A DNA stretch of 64,000 bases from positions 1-64,000 of the forward strand of contig NZ_KB903622.1 in NCBI RefSeq assembly GCF_000379725.1. Direction: 5' to 3'. Source of the stretch: Cytophaga aurantiaca DSM 3654. GTDB lineage: Bacteria; Bacteroidota; Bacteroidia; Cytophagales; Cytophagaceae. Positions 10,641-47,179 of this stretch are shown here, piece after piece. The notes beneath the pieces were generated by a model that was given only the letters and a program-made list of their open reading frames with translations, had not been told where the DNA came from and did no database searches. Each line of letters begins with the position of its first letter. Within the stretch, counting starts at the first letter, position 1. The translations under genes were made by a program, and so were the position numbers.

Positions 10641-10872
10641 TGAGTATGTCCCGTCCTAGGATGGAACAGTAACGCCTAAGTGAAAGATTGAATGCTTAAA
10701 GTTTGATTTAATAACAATATCTTTTTTAATAATCAGAATTTCCTGTATGTAAGGTAACTCCAGCGTTTGTATCTGTAGTATATTAAGTATCTCCGCCTCC
10801 TGAATGTTAGCTTTTAACTATATTCTTCGATATATTGTATATAGAAGAATATAGAATATACCTCACATTATT

Positions 10873-12183
10873 TTGGAAAAGATACTAATCATAGAAGACG
10901 ATATTTCGTTACGGAACATTCTTGAAAATTTCCTTCATAAAAATAAATTTGAGGTAATTACAACCGATAGAGGTAAAGCCGGACTGGAAATAGTAACTTC
11001 TCAGGACATCGATTTTGTACTCCTGGATTTGAGATTACCGGATAGTAATGGAATTGAAATTCTGCAAGCCATTAAAAAAGTACATGCGCATATTCCTATT
11101 GTTATCATGACTTTTTATGATGATGTGCGTTCTGCAGTAATGGCAATAAAATCCGGTGCACGGGATTATCTGACTAAACCGATTAATCCTGAAGAATTAC
11201 TTAGCTTATTGAAGCCTGCTGCAATACTCAATAAAAATACAGAGATCTGTAAAGAAGAATTTGTTAAAGGTAAAAGCCATTTATTTGAATCCGTACTTGA
11301 ACATGCGTCTCTGGTAGCTCCTACAATGCTTTCTGTATTGATTACCGGTGAAAGCGGGACGGGAAAAGAAGAGCTGGCAAAATATATTCACTCAAACAGT
11401 TTACGCAAACATAAGTCATTTGTAACAGTCGATTGCGGCTCTATTTCAGAAGAATTATTCGGTAGTGAATTTTTTGGACATATAAAAGGGGCGTTTACAG
11501 GAGCAATAAACGATAAGCCTGGACTACTAGAATCTGCAAATGGCGGAACCTTGTTTCTGGATGAACTTGGAAACCTGACGTATGAAAATCAGATCAAATT
11601 ATTAAGGGTATTGCAAGAAAGGAAGGTAAAGCGTATTGGCGCTACGAAAGAAATTGAACTCGATATCCGATTGATTGCAGCAACGAATGAAGAAATCATT
11701 TTGTCCGTACAGAAAGAAAAATTCAGAGAAGATTTATATCACAGGCTAAATGAGTTTAAAATTCATGTGCCAGCGTTAAGAGATCGTAAAGAAGACTTAA
11801 AAGAATTGACACAGCATTTTATATCAAAATCCAATACGGAGTTTAATAAGCATGTCAAACAATTTTCTGATACTTGTTTTAGAGTGTTGGCCCATTATGC
11901 TTTTCCCGGTAATATTCGTGAGTTGAAAAATGTAGTTCGTCGTGCCGTACTTCTTGCCAAATCGGATGTTATTGGTACGGAAGAACTACCGCAGGAGATG
12001 TTTCAGGCGCAATCAGTTTCTGCAGACACTGTAGATCTTAAATCATTACAGGAACAGCAGGAAAAGGATACAATTATTAAAGCATTAAAAAAGACCGGAA
12101 ACAATAAGAGTGAGGCTGCACGTATTTTAAATATTGACCGCAAAACACTTTACAATAAATTGAAATTATATCAACTCGAATAA
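10873..12183 (+). CDS. NtrC-family sigma-54-dependent response regulator
   Basis: The 436-residue protein has three domains. A receiver (1-120) carries the acidic pair, phospho-acceptor D52 and K102. A sigma-54 AAA+ domain (about 130-365) has Walker A GESGTGKE at 159-166, the sigma-54 contact loop GAFTGA at 206-211 and Walker B GTLFLDELG at 225-233. A Fis-type helix-turn-helix is at about 395-436 (NNKSEAARILNIDRKTLYNKL). All activation motifs are intact. The start is TTG at 10873, because it is in register with the MEKILIIEDD opening of such receivers. It converges with the hybrid kinase gene, overlapping its end by 13 bp; the pair is probably a phosphorelay. Confidence 0.93.
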   Translation: MEKILIIEDDISLRNILENFLHKNKFEVITTDRGKAGLEIVTSQDIDFVLLDLRLPDSNGIEILQAIKKVHAHIPIVIMTFYDDVRSAVMAIKSGARDYLTKPINPEELLSLLKPAAILNKNTEICKEEFVKGKSHLFESVLEHASLVAPTMLSVLITGESGTGKEELAKYIHSNSLRKHKSFVTVDCGSISEELFGSEFFGHIKGAFTGAINDKPGLLESANGGTLFLDELGNLTYENQIKLLRVLQERKVKRIGATKEIELDIRLIAATNEEIILSVQKEKFREDLYHRLNEFKIHVPALRDRKEDLKELTQHFISKSNTEFNKHVKQFSDTCFRVLAHYAFPGNIRELKNVVRRAVLLAKSDVIGTEELPQEMFQAQSVSADTVDLKSLQEQQEKDTIIKALKKTGNNKSEAARILNIDRKTLYNKLKLYQLE

Positions 12184-14585
12184 AACGTTTTCCAGTGTTT
12201 ATATAAGTCGGTGGTACTAAGATAAAGTGTTTCATTGTTTTTATGCACGGAGTAGGTACTTTCTATTTTTTGAATCTGTTTGATCTCATCCCATTGAGCC
12301 AGATATCCGAATGCAGTTTTTATCTGATGTAGAAGCGATTCTATATTTACATAATCCTTATTCTGAAGTGCAATTTTCAATAAATGCAATTTGTCAATTA
12401 ACGATTTCCTATGAATATCTTCAGATGCATCATGGAATTTGGTAGCATTAGTTGTTCTAATTCCAGAATCAGAAATAATAGATAGAATTTCTTCAATTGA
12501 ATATGGTTTTGCAAGTGTAGCATAATTTAACTCTTTAAGCTGTGCTAAACGATCATGATCTGCACTCATAAAAATAATTTTTGTATTGGCTGCCACAAAC
12601 GGAATGATTTCTGTGCCCATGGATTCATGAATATATAAATCGCATAAGACAATATCGGGTATTGTTTGCTCTAAAATTGTTTGTGTTTCTTCTAATGATC
12701 CTGCTACATATACATGTGTAACATATCTGGATAATAGTTGATGTGTATAAAGTAAATTATAATTATCATCATCAACCAGTAAAATAGAGACATTCAGATG
12801 TTTATATACATGAGGTGATTTTTCCTGTATGTGGGGTGATTTTTCAAACAGAATATCGAATGAAAAAGAAGTTCCTTTGTTTTCTTGCGAAAGAATAATG
12901 AACTCAGAAGAAAAAAGTGCAAGTGTTTTTTTCGTAATCACCAATCCCAAACCCGTTCCTCCAAATAGTCGACCAGTTGCTGTGCTGAGCTGGTTATATT
13001 CATCAAATAGTTGATCTAACTTATTGGCAGGAATGCCGATGCCGGTATCCGATATTTCAAAACGGATCTGTATGTATTTTTCGGTATCTAGAAAGGTTGA
13101 AACGGTTAAACGTACATCACCGTTTTCAGTAAACTTGATTGCATTACTTAATAAATTATACAAAATCTGTTTTAATCTAAAACCATCTGATAGGACAAAC
13201 AGATCATCAGGCAGGTCTGAGTTGTGCAAGTAATTTATTTTTTTATCCTGAGCCTGCATGCTTAAACTCTCAAATACATCCTCTATACATACCTTCAGAT
13301 TAAATGAAATGTGTTCAAGTTCTAATTTTCCGGAATCAATTTTACTTCTGTCAAGCAGCAGATTAATTGTTTGAAGCAAATGAGTCGATGATTTTTTTAT
13401 TATTTCACTATAATGATGTGTTTTATCAGGCGCAGATTTATTTTGTTGATACAGCAAATCTGAAAATCCAATAATGGATTGCAATGGAGTTCTTAGCTCA
13501 TGTGCCATCATGGATAAGAATTGAGATCGATTATTTGCCAGATTCTGATAATTCTGTTTTTCCAGAATGAGCTTTTCCTCATAGCGTTTGATGCGATATG
13601 TGTCCATGATCAATAATATGTACAAACAAATACAGGTAAATAAAATAAATAGAAAAATCCAGAATATCTGGTTGATGGTTTCATTGCTGATATTTTGAAT
13701 AGCAGTAATGTTGATCAATGCATCTGCCTGCTCTTGTTTCTGTATGTTTTTAATTTGGTTGAAAATTCGATTCCGAATGAAAAAATCTTTTTCTATAACT
13801 GCAAGCCTTTTTAAATTAACGATGGTGTCATGTTGCATCTTTTCCTGCAGTACATTTTTTACTTGCGCCTTATCCACTTTGTTGAACGCCTCTAGTTTTA
13901 CAAGAGTGTCTGTAAATACGGTGTCCTGTTCTTTATATGTGTAGGAATAAAGTTGCAAGGCCATATTTTCAGACGAGTCTACAACCAAATCTACTTCTTC
14001 TTTTTTGTCAAACATTTTTTTGACTTTGGATACCAATCCCCGGCGCTGCTCATTATTGAAAGGGATTTTCTTTATAATAACCAATGAGTCGTGAATAATT
14101 TTTTCATTATGAATCTGAGTAGAATAAAGTGTGGTATCCTTTGATTGATCTACTAGTTTGCTGATGACCAAAATATCAGGCTTATCGTTGTTTAATTTGA
14201 TAAGCTCTTTATTTTCCTCTAGTTTTTTATTCCACCATATTTGAATGGTATCTATCTGCCGTGTTTTAAAAGTATCTCCGGAAATATAATTTCGATACAT
14301 TTTAAAAAGCTGATTAACACTGTCTGCAGATTTATTGTATTTGTGAATGTATGCTTTCTGTTTGGTAATGGTATATAATCGTAAAAACTGGTCTGTATTG
14401 TTAGTCTGATCGGAGAGGTTGCTTAATAATTTTATTTTTTGATCCGGATATTGAAATTCTTTTACACTTTCACGCAGAGATGTGAATGCATTATGCCCAA
14501 AAAAACAAATAGAACAAATACCAATAATCCCGATAATTAATAGCAACGTTAATTTTATTTGAACTTGATTTTCTCTCCACTTCAT
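12171..14585 (-). CDS. Hybrid histidine kinase with receiver and HPt-like domain
   Basis: The 804-residue sensor has a membrane helix (about 9-30), a long periplasmic, mainly helical sensor region rich in K, D and N, and a second helix near 305-325. DHp with MMAHELRTPLQSIIGF (phospho-His), HATPase with NLLSNAIKF, DTGIGIP and GGTGLGL boxes, and a receiver with LLVDDD ... IVLCDL (Asp) and a LAKP Lys follow. The last about 70 residues contain LLHQIKTAFGYL, like the His helix of HPt domains. This gives a complete His-Asp-His relay in one chain, whose final acceptor is probably the NtrC-type regulator encoded convergently. The sensed signal is unknown. Confidence 0.88.
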   Translation of the reverse strand: MKWRENQVQIKLTLLLIIGIIGICSICFFGHNAFTSLRESVKEFQYPDQKIKLLSNLSDQTNNTDQFLRLYTITKQKAYIHKYNKSADSVNQLFKMYRNYISGDTFKTRQIDTIQIWWNKKLEENKELIKLNNDKPDILVISKLVDQSKDTTLYSTQIHNEKIIHDSLVIIKKIPFNNEQRRGLVSKVKKMFDKKEEVDLVVDSSENMALQLYSYTYKEQDTVFTDTLVKLEAFNKVDKAQVKNVLQEKMQHDTIVNLKRLAVIEKDFFIRNRIFNQIKNIQKQEQADALINITAIQNISNETINQIFWIFLFILFTCICLYILLIMDTYRIKRYEEKLILEKQNYQNLANNRSQFLSMMAHELRTPLQSIIGFSDLLYQQNKSAPDKTHHYSEIIKKSSTHLLQTINLLLDRSKIDSGKLELEHISFNLKVCIEDVFESLSMQAQDKKINYLHNSDLPDDLFVLSDGFRLKQILYNLLSNAIKFTENGDVRLTVSTFLDTEKYIQIRFEISDTGIGIPANKLDQLFDEYNQLSTATGRLFGGTGLGLVITKKTLALFSSEFIILSQENKGTSFSFDILFEKSPHIQEKSPHVYKHLNVSILLVDDDNYNLLYTHQLLSRYVTHVYVAGSLEETQTILEQTIPDIVLCDLYIHESMGTEIIPFVAANTKIIFMSADHDRLAQLKELNYATLAKPYSIEEILSIISDSGIRTTNATKFHDASEDIHRKSLIDKLHLLKIALQNKDYVNIESLLHQIKTAFGYLAQWDEIKQIQKIESTYSVHKNNETLYLSTTDLYKHWKTFYSS

Positions 14586-14644: not shown

Positions 14645-14688
14645 ATGTGTAGCATGTTTCTACAGGTCTGTAGAATTTTTCTACACAT
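14645..14688. promoter_or_regulatory. Tandem TGTAG-N7-CTACA operator (probable enhancer site)
   Basis: Two 17-bp dyads, each TGTAG, seven bases, CTACA, lie at 14648-14664 and 14669-14685. Their centres are 21 bp apart, two helical turns. Together they form a larger palindrome with matching arms at 14645-14652/14681-14688 and 14658-14665/14668-14675. It lies in the divergent gap between the hybrid kinase and the small secreted protein. Fis-HTH activators of the NtrC family typically bind such paired sites about 100 bp upstream of a sigma-54 promoter. Confidence 0.65.
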
Positions 14689-14737: not shown

Positions 14738-14755
14738 TTGGCACCATTTTGATTG
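14738..14755 (+). promoter_or_regulatory. Possible sigma-54 promoter, -24 box clear, -12 box weak
   Basis: TTGGCAC matches the -24 element fully. The -12 element should have GC ten bases after GG; here TTGAT follows one base too early and lacks the C. The position, about 75 bp downstream of the paired operator centre and about 50 bp before the ATG at 14789, is as expected. Confidence 0.35.
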
Positions 14756-14788
14756 TAATGGAAACATATTAACTAAAACAATTTAAGT

Positions 14789-15301
14789 ATGATCAAGACA
14801 TTATTTACAATTGCAGTAGCAGTATTAAGCACGAGTGCTATGGCACAAACGGATTCTGCTAAAATTAAAATAAAACAAGACACAATCAAATCAAAAGAAA
14901 CCGGAGCATTCATAATGAATGGAAAAATGATGGCTTTTGGTCCGCAAGCTGACAGTACGAAAGCAAAAACAAAATCAAAACCTGCTGCGAAACCGGATAC
15001 ATTAAAGACGGGTTCGTTGAAATCATCCGCTTTATTTTATGCAATGAGTCCGCAAACAGATTCGTTGAAAGCAAAACCAAATTCAGTGGATACTGTCAAA
15101 ACAGGATCAAAATATGCAACTGTATTGGATGCGAACGCATTTGTTGCGTACAATTCAGAAGATGGCCCGCAGACGGATTCTACAAAAACGAAACCCGCAT
15201 CTATTAAGCCGGATACTTCTACAACAAAGCCTGTAGATAAAAGAACTGGTGCAATTCAGATTGACAGATCTTTATTGAAAAATGAAATCTTAAAAGCTTA
15301 A
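14789..15301 (+). CDS. Small secreted protein with PQ-DS-K repeats
   Basis: The 170-residue protein has a clean signal peptide (about 1-20, ending AMAQ) and a mature chain of low complexity. Three copies of a G/SPQ(T/A)DS(T/L)K(A/T)K motif are spaced through it, each followed by a PDT/VDT-K-(T)G unit. A basic-rich end reads RTGAIQIDRSLLKNEILKA. No family is recognised. It is Lys, Thr and Ser rich and probably unstructured and periplasmic or surface-bound. It is preceded by the paired TGTAG operator and a -24-like box, so it is the likely target of the neighbouring NtrC-type regulator. A strong hairpin follows. Confidence 0.75.
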   Translation: MIKTLFTIAVAVLSTSAMAQTDSAKIKIKQDTIKSKETGAFIMNGKMMAFGPQADSTKAKTKSKPAAKPDTLKTGSLKSSALFYAMSPQTDSLKAKPNSVDTVKTGSKYATVLDANAFVAYNSEDGPQTDSTKTKPASIKPDTSTTKPVDKRTGAIQIDRSLLKNEILKA

Positions 15302-15326: not shown

Positions 15327-15382
15327 CCTTATACTAAAAAGCCTTTCTGAAAGTGATTTCAGAAAGGCTTTTTAGTATAAGG
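15327..15382. terminator. Bidirectional terminator, 26-bp perfect stem
   Basis: Arms 15327-15352 and 15357-15382 are perfectly complementary with a gtga loop. A run of A/T inside the stem serves the two convergent genes ending at 15301 and 15399. Confidence 0.88.
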
Positions 15383-15398: not shown

Positions 15399-16016
15399 TT
15401 AATGATCTTGCTCCTTTCTTTTTTGTTTGTAGATTATATATGCATCTATGATTGTTAGAGAACTTATGCATAGTATGCAGATCCAATAGCCCCATAATAT
15501 TTCATAAGCAAATAGTGCATACGGACTTGCAATGAATAAAAATCCCGTTGCACAAATTTCCAGAAGTAAAAATATTTTTACAGCATTCTTATCTATTAAT
15601 TTTGCCAACAACCCAAGTAGTAATAGTATGAAGGTTATGGTTGTAGCAAAAAGGGAAACAAATTGAATTGTATTAACAATGGTAGCAAGGCCAGTATACG
15701 TGCTAGATGCAGGCATTAATAGCGGTTTCAATATAGGGTATTTTTTAATGATTTTTTTAGAGGAGAATTCTTCTTCATCACTTGTAGATGTCTCTGTAAT
15801 GGTATCGGCTGAAATTATTTTTACAGTGTCCAAAGAGTAGCTTTTTTGTGAAATAGAATCTTCTTTTTTAGGAACAATAGGAACAACTACAGCAGTACTA
15901 TCTACATATGCATTCTGGGGTTTTTTATCGCTACAGCTGTCGTAAAAAAACGGCAATAAGAAACAGCACATTGTAATCCAATGCAGATGAAAAGAGCAGT
16001 TCTGAATTTTTTTCAT
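15399..16016 (-). CDS. Membrane protein of unknown function
   Basis: The 205-residue protein begins with a hydrophobic signal-like segment ending FFYDSCSDKK. The Cys could be a lipidation site, though the preceding residues are not a classical lipobox. A polar Ser/Thr/Val-rich linker (about 35-85) follows, then three hydrophobic helices (about 100-185) and a basic tail KQKRKEQDH. No family was recognised. It shares a strong terminator with the small secreted protein and is preceded by the heptad element at 16059. Confidence 0.65.
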   Translation of the reverse strand: MKKIQNCSFHLHWITMCCFLLPFFYDSCSDKKPQNAYVDSTAVVVPIVPKKEDSISQKSYSLDTVKIISADTITETSTSDEEEFSSKKIIKKYPILKPLLMPASSTYTGLATIVNTIQFVSLFATTITFILLLLGLLAKLIDKNAVKIFLLLEICATGFLFIASPYALFAYEILWGYWICILCISSLTIIDAYIIYKQKRKEQDH

Positions 16017-44368: not shown

Positions 44369-47179
44369 TTAATATTTAATTACTTTAGAAGTATACACTT
44401 CGTCTGCAGATGTTACCTGAAGAATGTAAATACCGGCAGCAATTTTTTCAATATCCAATGTAACAGTTGAAGTACTTAGATCAACCTGTTGTTGTAGTTG
44501 AACAACACCCGCCTGATTCAGTAATTTAACTGTGCCAGTAACATTGCTGCTTACAAGATCAAAAGAGATTCTTGTAGTTGCCGGGTTTGGATAGGTATTT
44601 AGATTTAATGTCTTGGCATATAGTACACCTGTTGAAGAAGAAGTTCTTTCTTCAATGTTTATAGAAGCATCTTCTACGGTTGAAGAACTACCATCTGTAA
44701 CAACTTGTACATAACCCTGTGTTCCTGAAATTGCAGTGCCACCTAGTTCAGGTACAGCTCTGTATTTTCCTGCCACAACATCTGTAAATTCGTATTTGCC
44801 TTCAGAATCAGTTAACGTATATGCAACGGTTGCTCCGCTTGCATTTGTTAAGTAGACTGTTGTATTGGCAGCAGGCACTTGATTTGCAGTAGCTGTTGTA
44901 CGCAAAAGAACTTGTCCTGATCCACTTAAATAAACAATACCTGCAATAACGTCGTTACCTGTATCCCATGTAGGATCAGCACTTGTATAAGCAGTTAATG
45001 GAATATTTTTAGTTGTATTAGAAGTCAAAGAGAATACTTGTGCCTGATCCCATTTCTGAACGCCGCCAGAATAGGTTGGTAAAAACGTATTTGCGAAAGT
45101 TGAAGTACGTGTTGGTGTGGCAAAAACAATATAATTTCCTGCAGGAAGATTTTCTGCACTATAAGCACCTGCATCGGAAGCAGCAAGATCTATTTTTTGA
45201 ATAAGTCTGACTGTAGTATTTTCTTTTTTGTAGATCAATACTACACCTTCGTCAAGCGCATTGGTAGCGGCTTGTATCACACCGGAAAGTGTAAAGGTAT
45301 TTCCGATTGTTACATACATATTATCAGATGCGGCAGCGCATACACCGTTACCTGTGCTTGTTAGTGTTAGTTTTACTAAACCATTTACGATATCCTGTGC
45401 AGAAGGGGTATATGTTGCAGATAAAGAAGTTGCAGAACTGAATGTTCCTGTTCCGCTTGAAGTCCATAGTGCACCACTTGCGCTGGATACAGCCCCGCTT
45501 AAAGATACTGTTGTACCTGTTATTACCTGATCTAAACCTGCATAAACGTTTGGAGAAGTTGCACTTGCAACTGTTACCGTTACCTGATCGGAAACACTTG
45601 TACCACATGTACCGGTAGTAGTAAGCGTAAAGGTTACAGAACCAATATTCGCATCTGAATTTGAAAAAGAATAAGTAGTGTTCAGGTATTGAGCAGAAGG
45701 AGCAAATGTACCCGTACCGGTTGTAGTCCAGATGCCGCCAGTTGCATTCGTTACAGTTCCATTCAAATTGACATAAGATTTACATGTTGTTACATCGAGA
45801 CCTGCATTTGCAGCTGCTGTTGCACCTGTGAATGTTACAGCTACTGTTCCGGATTCTGAAGGACAAGAACCGTTTGTGCTGGATGTTACATTTAGCGTTA
45901 CTTGTCCGGCTGTGTAATCCGCTGCAGAAGGAACATAGGTTGGTGTTAGCGAAGTTGCATTTGTGAATGAACCGGTGCCGGATGAAGTCCATGTTACAGT
46001 ACCTGCGTCTACAGCTACTGTTGGGAATGCCGGAGCATTCGGACAAACAGTAATTGCTGGACCTGCGATCAATCGAACCCGAGCGTTAATGGTTACAATA
46101 AGCTGATCGGATGCAGCAGGGCATGAGCCGTTGCTTGTTGTAGTTGCCGTTAAGGTAGCTATTCCGGCAGTACGTTCTGCTTGAGAAGGAGAGTATGTAG
46201 GGTTTGCAATGGTTGTGCTTGAGAATGTTCCTGAACCTGATGAAGTCCAGACAACGCCACCTGCACCGGAGAACGTAGCATTCAATTGAACGCTGTTGCC
46301 GCACATGGATTGATCTGCTCCGGCATTTACAGATGCGCCGCTGTTTATGATCGATACTGTAAGAGCATCTGAAGCTGTACATCCGCCGCTGCTTGTAGCC
46401 GTAAGTGTTAAGACAACATTACTTGCTGTAATATCTGCAGCGGAAGGTTGATAGGTTGGATGTAAAACAGTAGTACTTGAAAATGTACCTGTTCCGGAAG
46501 TGCTCCATAGATAGGTTGTAGCATTTGTAACTGTTGCGTTTATTAAACTCACGGGTGAATTCAGACAGCTTGTAAGATCTAAGCCCGCATTAACAGATGG
46601 GGAAGCAATGAACGTAATTACAACCTGGTCCGATGAAGTACATGCACCGGCACTCGTAGCCGTTGCTGTCAATGTAACAGAGCCGTTTGTTAGATCTGCT
46701 TGACTTGGATAATATAATGAATTCGCTGAAGAAGGATTTGTAAATGTACCTGAACCGCTAGCTGTGCTCCATGCTAATGTGGCGCCGCCTGAAATGCTGG
46801 CAGTCATCTGTACATTGCTGCAGCTTGTTTGATCCGCACCGGCACTGATGCTTGGCACCGGATTGATTGTGATCAACACTGTAGCTGTTTTAGCAGTACA
46901 CGATCCGCCGCTGCCTGATAGGCTAAGTGTAACAGAGCCTGCTGTGATATCTGCTGGAGAAGGTGAGTACACCGTACCCAGATTTGTTGTTGTCATAAAT
47001 GACCCTGTGCCACTGGTTGACCATAGGTAGGTGGTAAACTGTGTGGCTGTCCCTTGAATGGGGAATGAGCTTTGAGTAGAGCAGATCGTAAGATCAGAGC
47101 CTGCGCTAATTACGCATTGTGCATTACTTAGCAAAGGTATTAATCCAATGGCTAGTAGTAAAAGTAGAATTTTTTTCAT
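44369..47179 (-). CDS. Seven-repeat Ig-like secreted protein with T9SS sorting domain
   Basis: The 936-residue protein has a signal peptide (about 1-20, ending SNA). Seven tandem repeats of about 86 residues (about 21-625) follow, each with AG-D-T-C, W-T/S-SSGTGTF, PTY-PS-AD and V-LT-T. Next come two prealbumin-like or Cna-B/carboxypeptidase regulatory modules (about 630-850; YLTNASGATVAYTLTDSEGKYEFTDVVAGKYRAVPELG). A type-A sorting tail ends it (TYPNPATTR ... EKIAAGIYILQVTSADEVYTSKVIKY). It is a surface or adhesin-like protein with no visible enzyme domain. Repeats share DNA-level similarity, so repeat number may vary between strains. Confidence 0.9.
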   Translation of the reverse strand: MKKILLLLLAIGLIPLLSNAQCVISAGSDLTICSTQSSFPIQGTATQFTTYLWSTSGTGSFMTTTNLGTVYSPSPADITAGSVTLSLSGSGGSCTAKTATVLITINPVPSISAGADQTSCSNVQMTASISGGATLAWSTASGSGTFTNPSSANSLYYPSQADLTNGSVTLTATATSAGACTSSDQVVITFIASPSVNAGLDLTSCLNSPVSLINATVTNATTYLWSTSGTGTFSSTTVLHPTYQPSAADITASNVVLTLTATSSGGCTASDALTVSIINSGASVNAGADQSMCGNSVQLNATFSGAGGVVWTSSGSGTFSSTTIANPTYSPSQAERTAGIATLTATTTSNGSCPAASDQLIVTINARVRLIAGPAITVCPNAPAFPTVAVDAGTVTWTSSGTGSFTNATSLTPTYVPSAADYTAGQVTLNVTSSTNGSCPSESGTVAVTFTGATAAANAGLDVTTCKSYVNLNGTVTNATGGIWTTTGTGTFAPSAQYLNTTYSFSNSDANIGSVTFTLTTTGTCGTSVSDQVTVTVASATSPNVYAGLDQVITGTTVSLSGAVSSASGALWTSSGTGTFSSATSLSATYTPSAQDIVNGLVKLTLTSTGNGVCAAASDNMYVTIGNTFTLSGVIQAATNALDEGVVLIYKKENTTVRLIQKIDLAASDAGAYSAENLPAGNYIVFATPTRTSTFANTFLPTYSGGVQKWDQAQVFSLTSNTTKNIPLTAYTSADPTWDTGNDVIAGIVYLSGSGQVLLRTTATANQVPAANTTVYLTNASGATVAYTLTDSEGKYEFTDVVAGKYRAVPELGGTAISGTQGYVQVVTDGSSSTVEDASINIEERTSSSTGVLYAKTLNLNTYPNPATTRISFDLVSSNVTGTVKLLNQAGVVQLQQQVDLSTSTVTLDIEKIAAGIYILQVTSADEVYTSKVIKY

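Follow-up and report, generated by a model that had tools for sequence, protein, structure and literature searches.

The nearest described counterparts of the locus analysed here are two sigma-54-dependent systems of Escherichia coli and a set of promoters mapped within the Bacteroidota. In the available part of its description, the E. coli NtrC box (TGCACCAnnnTGGTGCA) is a 17-bp palindrome (PMC8743547). E. coli ZraPSR, as far as the available portions of two accounts describe it, has a sigma-54 response regulator with few direct targets, among them the system's own small periplasmic protein, and it has links with envelope stress and with repression of the system itself (PMC7657598, PMC10848872). 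For Flavobacterium psychrophilum, the corresponding part of a third account maps sigma-54 (SM4) promoters with -24/-12 elements, some of them before exported proteins of unknown function, and proposes that clusters of these promoters may answer to distinct activators (PMC9723704).

The window, the whole 64,000-nt stretch of Cytophaga aurantiaca DNA that was analysed, carries a pair of TGTAG-N7-CTACA dyads (14648–14664 and 14669–14685) inside a 203-bp gap between a leftward kinase gene and a rightward 170-aa open reading frame. As in the NtrC enhancers, in the part of their description available (PMC8743547), the dyads are 17-bp TG...CA palindromes upstream of a sigma-54 promoter, with binding here predicted; unlike those enhancers, they have a TGTRG half-site, a tandem spacing of 20–21 bp and another regulator. 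No nitrogen genes are found among the neighbours examined. Judged by the sequence features tested, the gap site is of the NtrC-type enhancer kind, except for its -12 box. The resemblance to ZraPSR as partly described lies in a small exported ORF behind TGGCAY beside sigma-54 two-component genes, found at 17 of the 23 loci with a convergent kinase. Unlike in ZraPSR, the kinase is a hybrid with a receiver and an Hpt-like end and is convergent with the regulator, and the small protein, referred to here as cargo, is PepSY-like or of low complexity rather than ZraP. The regulator scores 368.7 bits against a ZraR family cut-off of 760, so the system is not ZraPSR. Identity of the cargo with ZraP was likewise rejected: Pfam and NCBIfam searches with the 170-aa protein gave no match, and the joint profile of 11 relatives is PepSY-like. 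By analogy, the system would work like NtrC enhancers and ZraPSR. It shares its phylum with the SM4 promoters, some of which also precede exported proteins; the account of these promoters, in the part available, contains no enhancer sequence and pairs no activator with a target, both of which are proposed here (PMC9723704). No description of the site or the module was found in the titles and abstract openings of the best-matching open-licence papers, which is weak evidence of novelty.

The tandem dyads and their neighbours

The features of the locus are as follows.

10873..12183, plus strand: NtrC-type response regulator gene (REC, sigma-54 AAA+ with GAFTGA, Fis HTH); candidate dyad binder
12171..14585, minus strand: hybrid histidine kinase gene (HisKA, HATPase and REC over cut-offs; CHASE3 match below cut-off)
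14648..14664, no strand: upstream dyad TGTAG-CATGTTT-CTACA; candidate site for a first regulator dimer, its centre preceding the -24 box by 83 bp
14658..14675, no strand: inner palindrome TTCTACA-GGTC-TGTAGAA, common to both dyads
14669..14685, no strand: downstream dyad TGTAG-AATTTTT-CTACA; candidate site for a second regulator dimer, its centre preceding the -24 box by 62 bp
14739..14744, plus strand: sigma-54-like -24 element TGGCAC, part of a 10-bp stretch (TGGCACCATT) that is unchanged in the sister species
14749..14753, plus strand: weak -12-like stretch TTGAT; canonical TTGC absent
14789..15301, plus strand: proposed target, a 170-aa exported protein with a signal-peptide-like start and low-complexity QTDSTKAK-like and DTVKTG-like repeats

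The first-pass annotation of this DNA had placed the two dyads, and both their coordinates and the identity of their half-sites are confirmed. Their centres (14656 and 14677) are 21 bp apart, the two helical turns that it had reported, and the large palindrome it described is present, with a TGTAG/CTACA pair outside and a TTCTACA/TGTAGAA pair inside. It had also called a doubled dyad very unlikely by chance. A first-order Markov model of the window agrees: 50 Mb of sequence generated from it had single dyads at 0.54 per Mb and no pair spaced 15–60 bp, and the number of pairs expected is about 6e-5 for a genome and 9e-7 for a window. Across the 4.42-Mb genome the strict pattern has seven sites, compared with three for the reversed-pattern control, and the only close pair among the seven is the one in the gap. 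The locus matched nothing in a plasmid collection.

The -24 element at 14739 is a good match to TGGCAY and is kept in the sister species, and sigma-54 is encoded in 9 of the 9 genomes searched. At the fixed spacing of the -12 TTGC, the window has TGAT and the sister species (G002) TTCT; the canonical TTGC is present at the correct spacing in the promoter of another genome (G125, locus L181). Genome-wide, the canonical -12 motif TGGCAY-N4-TTTGCA or its variant TTTCTA has few matches, and a -24-plus-TTGC motif with two mismatches allowed is uninformative by itself. Measured from the composite's centre (14666.5), the -24 box is about 72 bp downstream and the start that we place near 14764 would be about 97 bp downstream, close to the earlier figure of about 98 bp.

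Of 58 other genomes searched, only G002 encodes a relative of the 170-aa protein. In the window, the gene for this protein is followed by a perfect inverted repeat (15327–15382; 26-bp arms, 4-base loop), probably a strong terminator, though a simple terminator scan did not list it. Further downstream is a 205-aa ORF with hydrophobic stretches (15399–16016), in a place where G002 has no ORF of at least 120 aa between the small exported gene and a NifU-like gene.

The regulator is of NtrC type (REC-AAA-Fis), with Pfam Response_reg, Sigma54_activat and HTH_8 over their cut-offs, a GAFTGA loop that is intact in the alignment and the recognition helix DRKTLYNKL in its Fis HTH. Its gene is convergent with the kinase gene and the ends of the two overlap. 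The Hpt-like end of the window kinase becomes apparent only by C-terminal alignment to the Hpt ends of relatives; this alignment, together with residues H362, D649 and H753, invariant in seven aligned kinases, suggests a four-step phosphorelay. Among kinases of relatives, those of L064, L095 and L098 score over the CHASE3 cut-off and those of L103 and L114 lack the domain; for Hpt, L064 and L114 pass the cut-off, L095 and L098 score under it, and neither L103 nor the window has a call. Autoregulation of the regulator gene was considered and rejected: besides the two gap dyads, the only dyad in the window is at 45229, in a scan whose looser pattern TGYNG-N7-CNRCA gave four matches. An inverted repeat, TATTCTTC-N15-GAAGAATA (10821–10851), stands directly before the regulator gene and is not kept in G002.

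In G002 (one contig, 4,433,218 bases) the same three genes are present, and its gap aligns indel-free with that of the window all the way from dyads to -24 box. The half-sites there read TGCTG, CCACA, TGTGG and CAGCA; three arm positions have changed on both sides and the nested composite palindrome is retained. Conservation in orthologous gaps, proposed earlier as a check, thus holds for the composite palindrome and fails for the half-sites, which have drifted so that the strict pattern misses the orthologous place. The inner palindrome, written TTCYACA-N4-TGTRGAA, is perfectly matched just once in the window's own genome and once in G002, both times at the gap site, and nowhere in the ten other family genomes searched; with one mismatch it does not rise above the reversed control in most of the 12.

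Recurrence with promoter and cargo across the Bacteroidota

In four genomes of a second genus of the family (G008, G013, G016 and G018) the regulator is 49–50% identical and the kinase 29%, and their genes are again convergent. A 62-aa exported protein containing TDTTKK, DSTKSKK or DTTKSKK is encoded ahead of the kinase on the same strand. Between its gene and the kinase is a perfect dyad followed 62 bp on by TGGCAY (4/4 genomes); the dyad ahead of the 62-aa gene is weaker, with two to three mismatches. These loci (L064–L067) have a second sigma-54-like promoter, 199–331 bp upstream of the kinase start, from which the kinase or another very short ORF may be transcribed.

A search of genome contigs with the regulator alignment returned 592 loci, of which the best 80 were taken, 31 of them Bacteroidota by record title and the other 49 serving as controls. 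Within this set, dyads of at most one mismatch with TGGCAY 50–140 bp downstream numbered 12 in the Bacteroidota loci (reversed control, 3) and 4 in the control loci. Perfect dyads numbered 5 in 578 kb and 3 in 745 kb, respectively, which per kilobase is only a twofold or so excess for the long Bacteroidota loci over the controls. All five in the Bacteroidota lie within about 1 kb of the regulator with TGGCAY downstream, and all three in the controls at least 3 kb from it; it is closeness to the regulator together with TGGCAY, not raw density, that tells the two groups of these best 80 loci apart. Searching 149 genomes of the class yielded 23 loci beyond the window's own genome, 20 of which were fetched at length. 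The 23 gave six perfect dyads against none for the reversed control, and seven against none with TGGCAY; one of the six (L188) is inside the regulator's own coding sequence, and one-mismatch dyads (10) are hardly above the reversed control (8).

The kinase gene is convergent with the regulator gene at 23 of the 59 regulator loci analysed; these 23 are from Bacteroidota and include the window. At these 23, candidate promoters were chosen without reference to the dyad, by a crude rule that asks for TGGCAY and then a small ORF with a signal-peptide-like start, yielding 21 candidates in 17 loci. The best dyad 150 to 30 bp upstream is perfect in 6/21 and within one mismatch in 9/21, counts that include four promoters later set aside, before the geometry analysis, as not being cargo promoters (L114 9471, L215 5143, L215 13205 and L224 4739). 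Over 500 dinucleotide shuffles the means for perfect dyads and for dyads within one mismatch were 0.008 and 0.196, with maxima of 1 and 3. Without the window and G002 the counts are 5/19 and 8/19; some of the loci are near relatives, namely the four second-genus (g7) genomes and L097 and L214, whose cargo is almost identical. At L066 and L101 even the best dyad has three and four mismatches, respectively. At six of the 23 loci (L094, L099, L100, L105, L112 and L116) no candidate promoter was found; L094 and L099 have a similar-looking small exported ORF without TGGCAY, and L116 is missing the sequence upstream of the regulator. In Algoriphagus (L118, 9501–9518), an 18-bp dyad TGTAG-N8-CTACA before TGGCAT and the start of a receiver-domain gene is possibly a related site with one extra base between its arms.

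Geometry was analysed on 25 promoters, comprising 17 cargo promoters, the 4 second promoters of the g7 genomes and 4 from loci without a convergent kinase that were chosen for having a perfect dyad and TGGCAY. The spacing test used the 23 whose dyad has at most two mismatches, skipping L066 and L101. A partner dyad fits best at 20 bp, with a mean mismatch of 3.4 against 5.2–7.2 at other offsets of 14–40 bp, and the figures are 3.6 against 5.25–7.1 when Cytophaga and near-duplicates are removed (16 promoters). Within 16–26 bp the best partner is 20 or 21 bp away in 19/23, the exceptions being L215, L103, L111 and L222; the 21-bp spacing is that of the window, G002 and L114, and 3 or 4 bp separate the members of a pair. 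Between dyad centre and -24 box the distances are 62–63, 74, 83–85, 96–98, 104–109 and 116 bp. For 18 distances, from which near-duplicate g7 promoters were omitted, phasing at 10.5 bp has R=0.70, a value reached by 0 of 20,000 random draws; thinned sets give p of 0.0009–0.004 at 10.5 bp, the best-fitting period is 11.0 bp, and shared descent may inflate the statistic.

The cargo itself varies. In Cytophaga, the second genus and G088/G125 it is a low-complexity exported protein rich in D-S/T-T/K. Small proteins of 11 relatives align with one another, and their joint profile matches PepSY-like 3u1w (E 1.9e-12); Pfam PepSY_like matches 2 of the 11. The predicted cargo fold (mean pLDDT 71) resembles DUF2874/BLIP-like structures with a probability of 1.00 and an E value no better than 3.5e-3.

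Readings of the palindrome

The recurrence of matching sites in related bacteria suggests that the dyads are where the product of the adjacent sigma-54 activator gene binds. Tandem dyads about two turns apart, 60–150 bp before a -24 element and linked to an activator gene, are what the sequence of an enhancer (upstream activating sequence) should contain, and the gap site has them. The NtrC-type arrangement that the first-pass annotation had recognised is borne out by the adjacent NtrC-type regulator, the presence of rpoN and the downstream -24 box, and by its recurrence before small exported genes in other Bacteroidota with 20–21-bp tandem spacing and helical phasing. On these grounds the dyads are, with high probability, enhancers of the neighbouring regulator (10873–12183) that would activate the sigma-54 promoter of the small exported gene (14789–15301).

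An unlikely alternative partner is another sigma-54 activator, or several activators sharing the DRKTLYNKL helix. Whether or not the kinase is convergent, the regulators have nearly the same recognition helix, and some loci that lack a convergent kinase (L103, L111, L221 and L222) also have dyads nearby. Against this stand the linkage of dyad, small gene, regulator and kinase, and the lack of a perfect dyad in 20 loci (80 kb) of less similar regulators in genomes of the family.

Somewhat less probable still is an operator for a different kind of regulator, for example a repressor on TTCTACA-N4-TGTAGAA controlling both kinase and small gene, a reading favoured by the single perfect genome-wide match of the inner palindrome in both Cytophaga-group genomes. 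The unit that recurs elsewhere, however, is TGTRG-N7-CYACA, only 5 of 17 cargo promoters having the inner palindrome, and the space between paired dyads varies by a base pair. The proximity of the Bacteroidota perfect dyads to the regulator in the best 80 of 592 loci, and the lack of such dyads at the 20 less-similar-regulator loci, also argue against it.

We give yet a little less credence to the idea that the palindrome acts as RNA, forming a hairpin (attenuator or stability element) in the kinase's 5' leader, instead of as a protein site on DNA. Both strands of the window fold well (z -5.0 and -6.1), as do G002 (-3.5), L095 (-3.2) and L215 (-3.4), and the paired changes between window and G002 would fit RNA too. 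Folding is weak or absent, however, at L098 (-1.0), L068 (-1.1), L114 (-2.3), L111 (-1.8), L097 (+0.1) and L222 (-1.0), and the source of the strong hairpin, the inner palindrome CYACA-N3/4-TGTRG, is confined to the five cargo promoters just mentioned. In most relatives the site precedes the small gene upstream of the regulator, distant from the kinase start, and a hairpin would leave unexplained the phasing to the -24 box, upstream of which the site sits.

Chance or a dispersed palindromic repeat is hardly credible, for although certain of the remaining strict sites form part of an intergenic palindrome TGTAGTC-N3-GACTACA, the cores of both gap dyads differ from it, and chance, at about 6e-5 expected pairs per genome, is contradicted by conservation and by recurrence in relatives. 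That palindrome, with small variants, occurs at C13:5902, C42:228593 and C46:155122 of the window's own genome and at 527050, 527252 and 3620494 of G002, where two copies are about 200 bp apart; it resembles REP-type repeats and seems to have no connection with the enhancer.

Reach of the site and the proposed circuit

A regulon defined by a genome-wide scan for the dyad, as had been envisaged, did not emerge. TGTRG-N7-CYACA has 10 sites in the window's own genome against 17 for the control and is not enriched in G002 either (20 against 17), so that the gap site looks like a dedicated local switch rather than part of a regulon. Five of the 10 own-genome sites are intergenic, and only the two in the gap have TGGCAY 40–160 bp downstream; in G002, none of the 15 examined out of 20 is intergenic with TGGCAY at that distance.

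With the neighbouring regulator as the predicted dyad binder, the membrane hybrid kinase (12171–14585) would sense an envelope or external signal and relay phosphate to the regulator, probably via its own receiver and Hpt-like end. Once phosphorylated, dimers of the regulator would occupy both 17-bp dyads on one face of the DNA and oligomerise; by DNA looping the oligomer would reach sigma-54 RNA polymerase at the -24 box (14739) and bring about opening of the small gene's promoter. We infer regulator binding, sigma-54 use, the signal and the function of the product alike from sequence. By analogy with ZraP, which plays such a part for ZraSR, the small exported protein would most likely serve envelope protection or feedback on the sensor.

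A broader reading, offered tentatively and held to be rather less probable than not, is that the locus represents a Bacteroidota-wide envelope-sensing phosphorelay in which a dedicated activator acts through twin phased enhancers on essentially one feedback gene, the cargo being swapped between lineages and the enhancer code kept. The single PepSY-like domain of the cargo in many lineages, and its low-complexity counterpart in Cytophaga, the second genus and G088/G125, bear on the proposed swap.

One activator subfamily would thereby gain a predicted binding code, promoter geometry and target, and a likely target and binding code could be assigned to an uncharacterised signalling system. The family libraries searched assign no function to the small PepSY-like or low-complexity exported proteins, around which these findings suggest a ZraP-like circuit.
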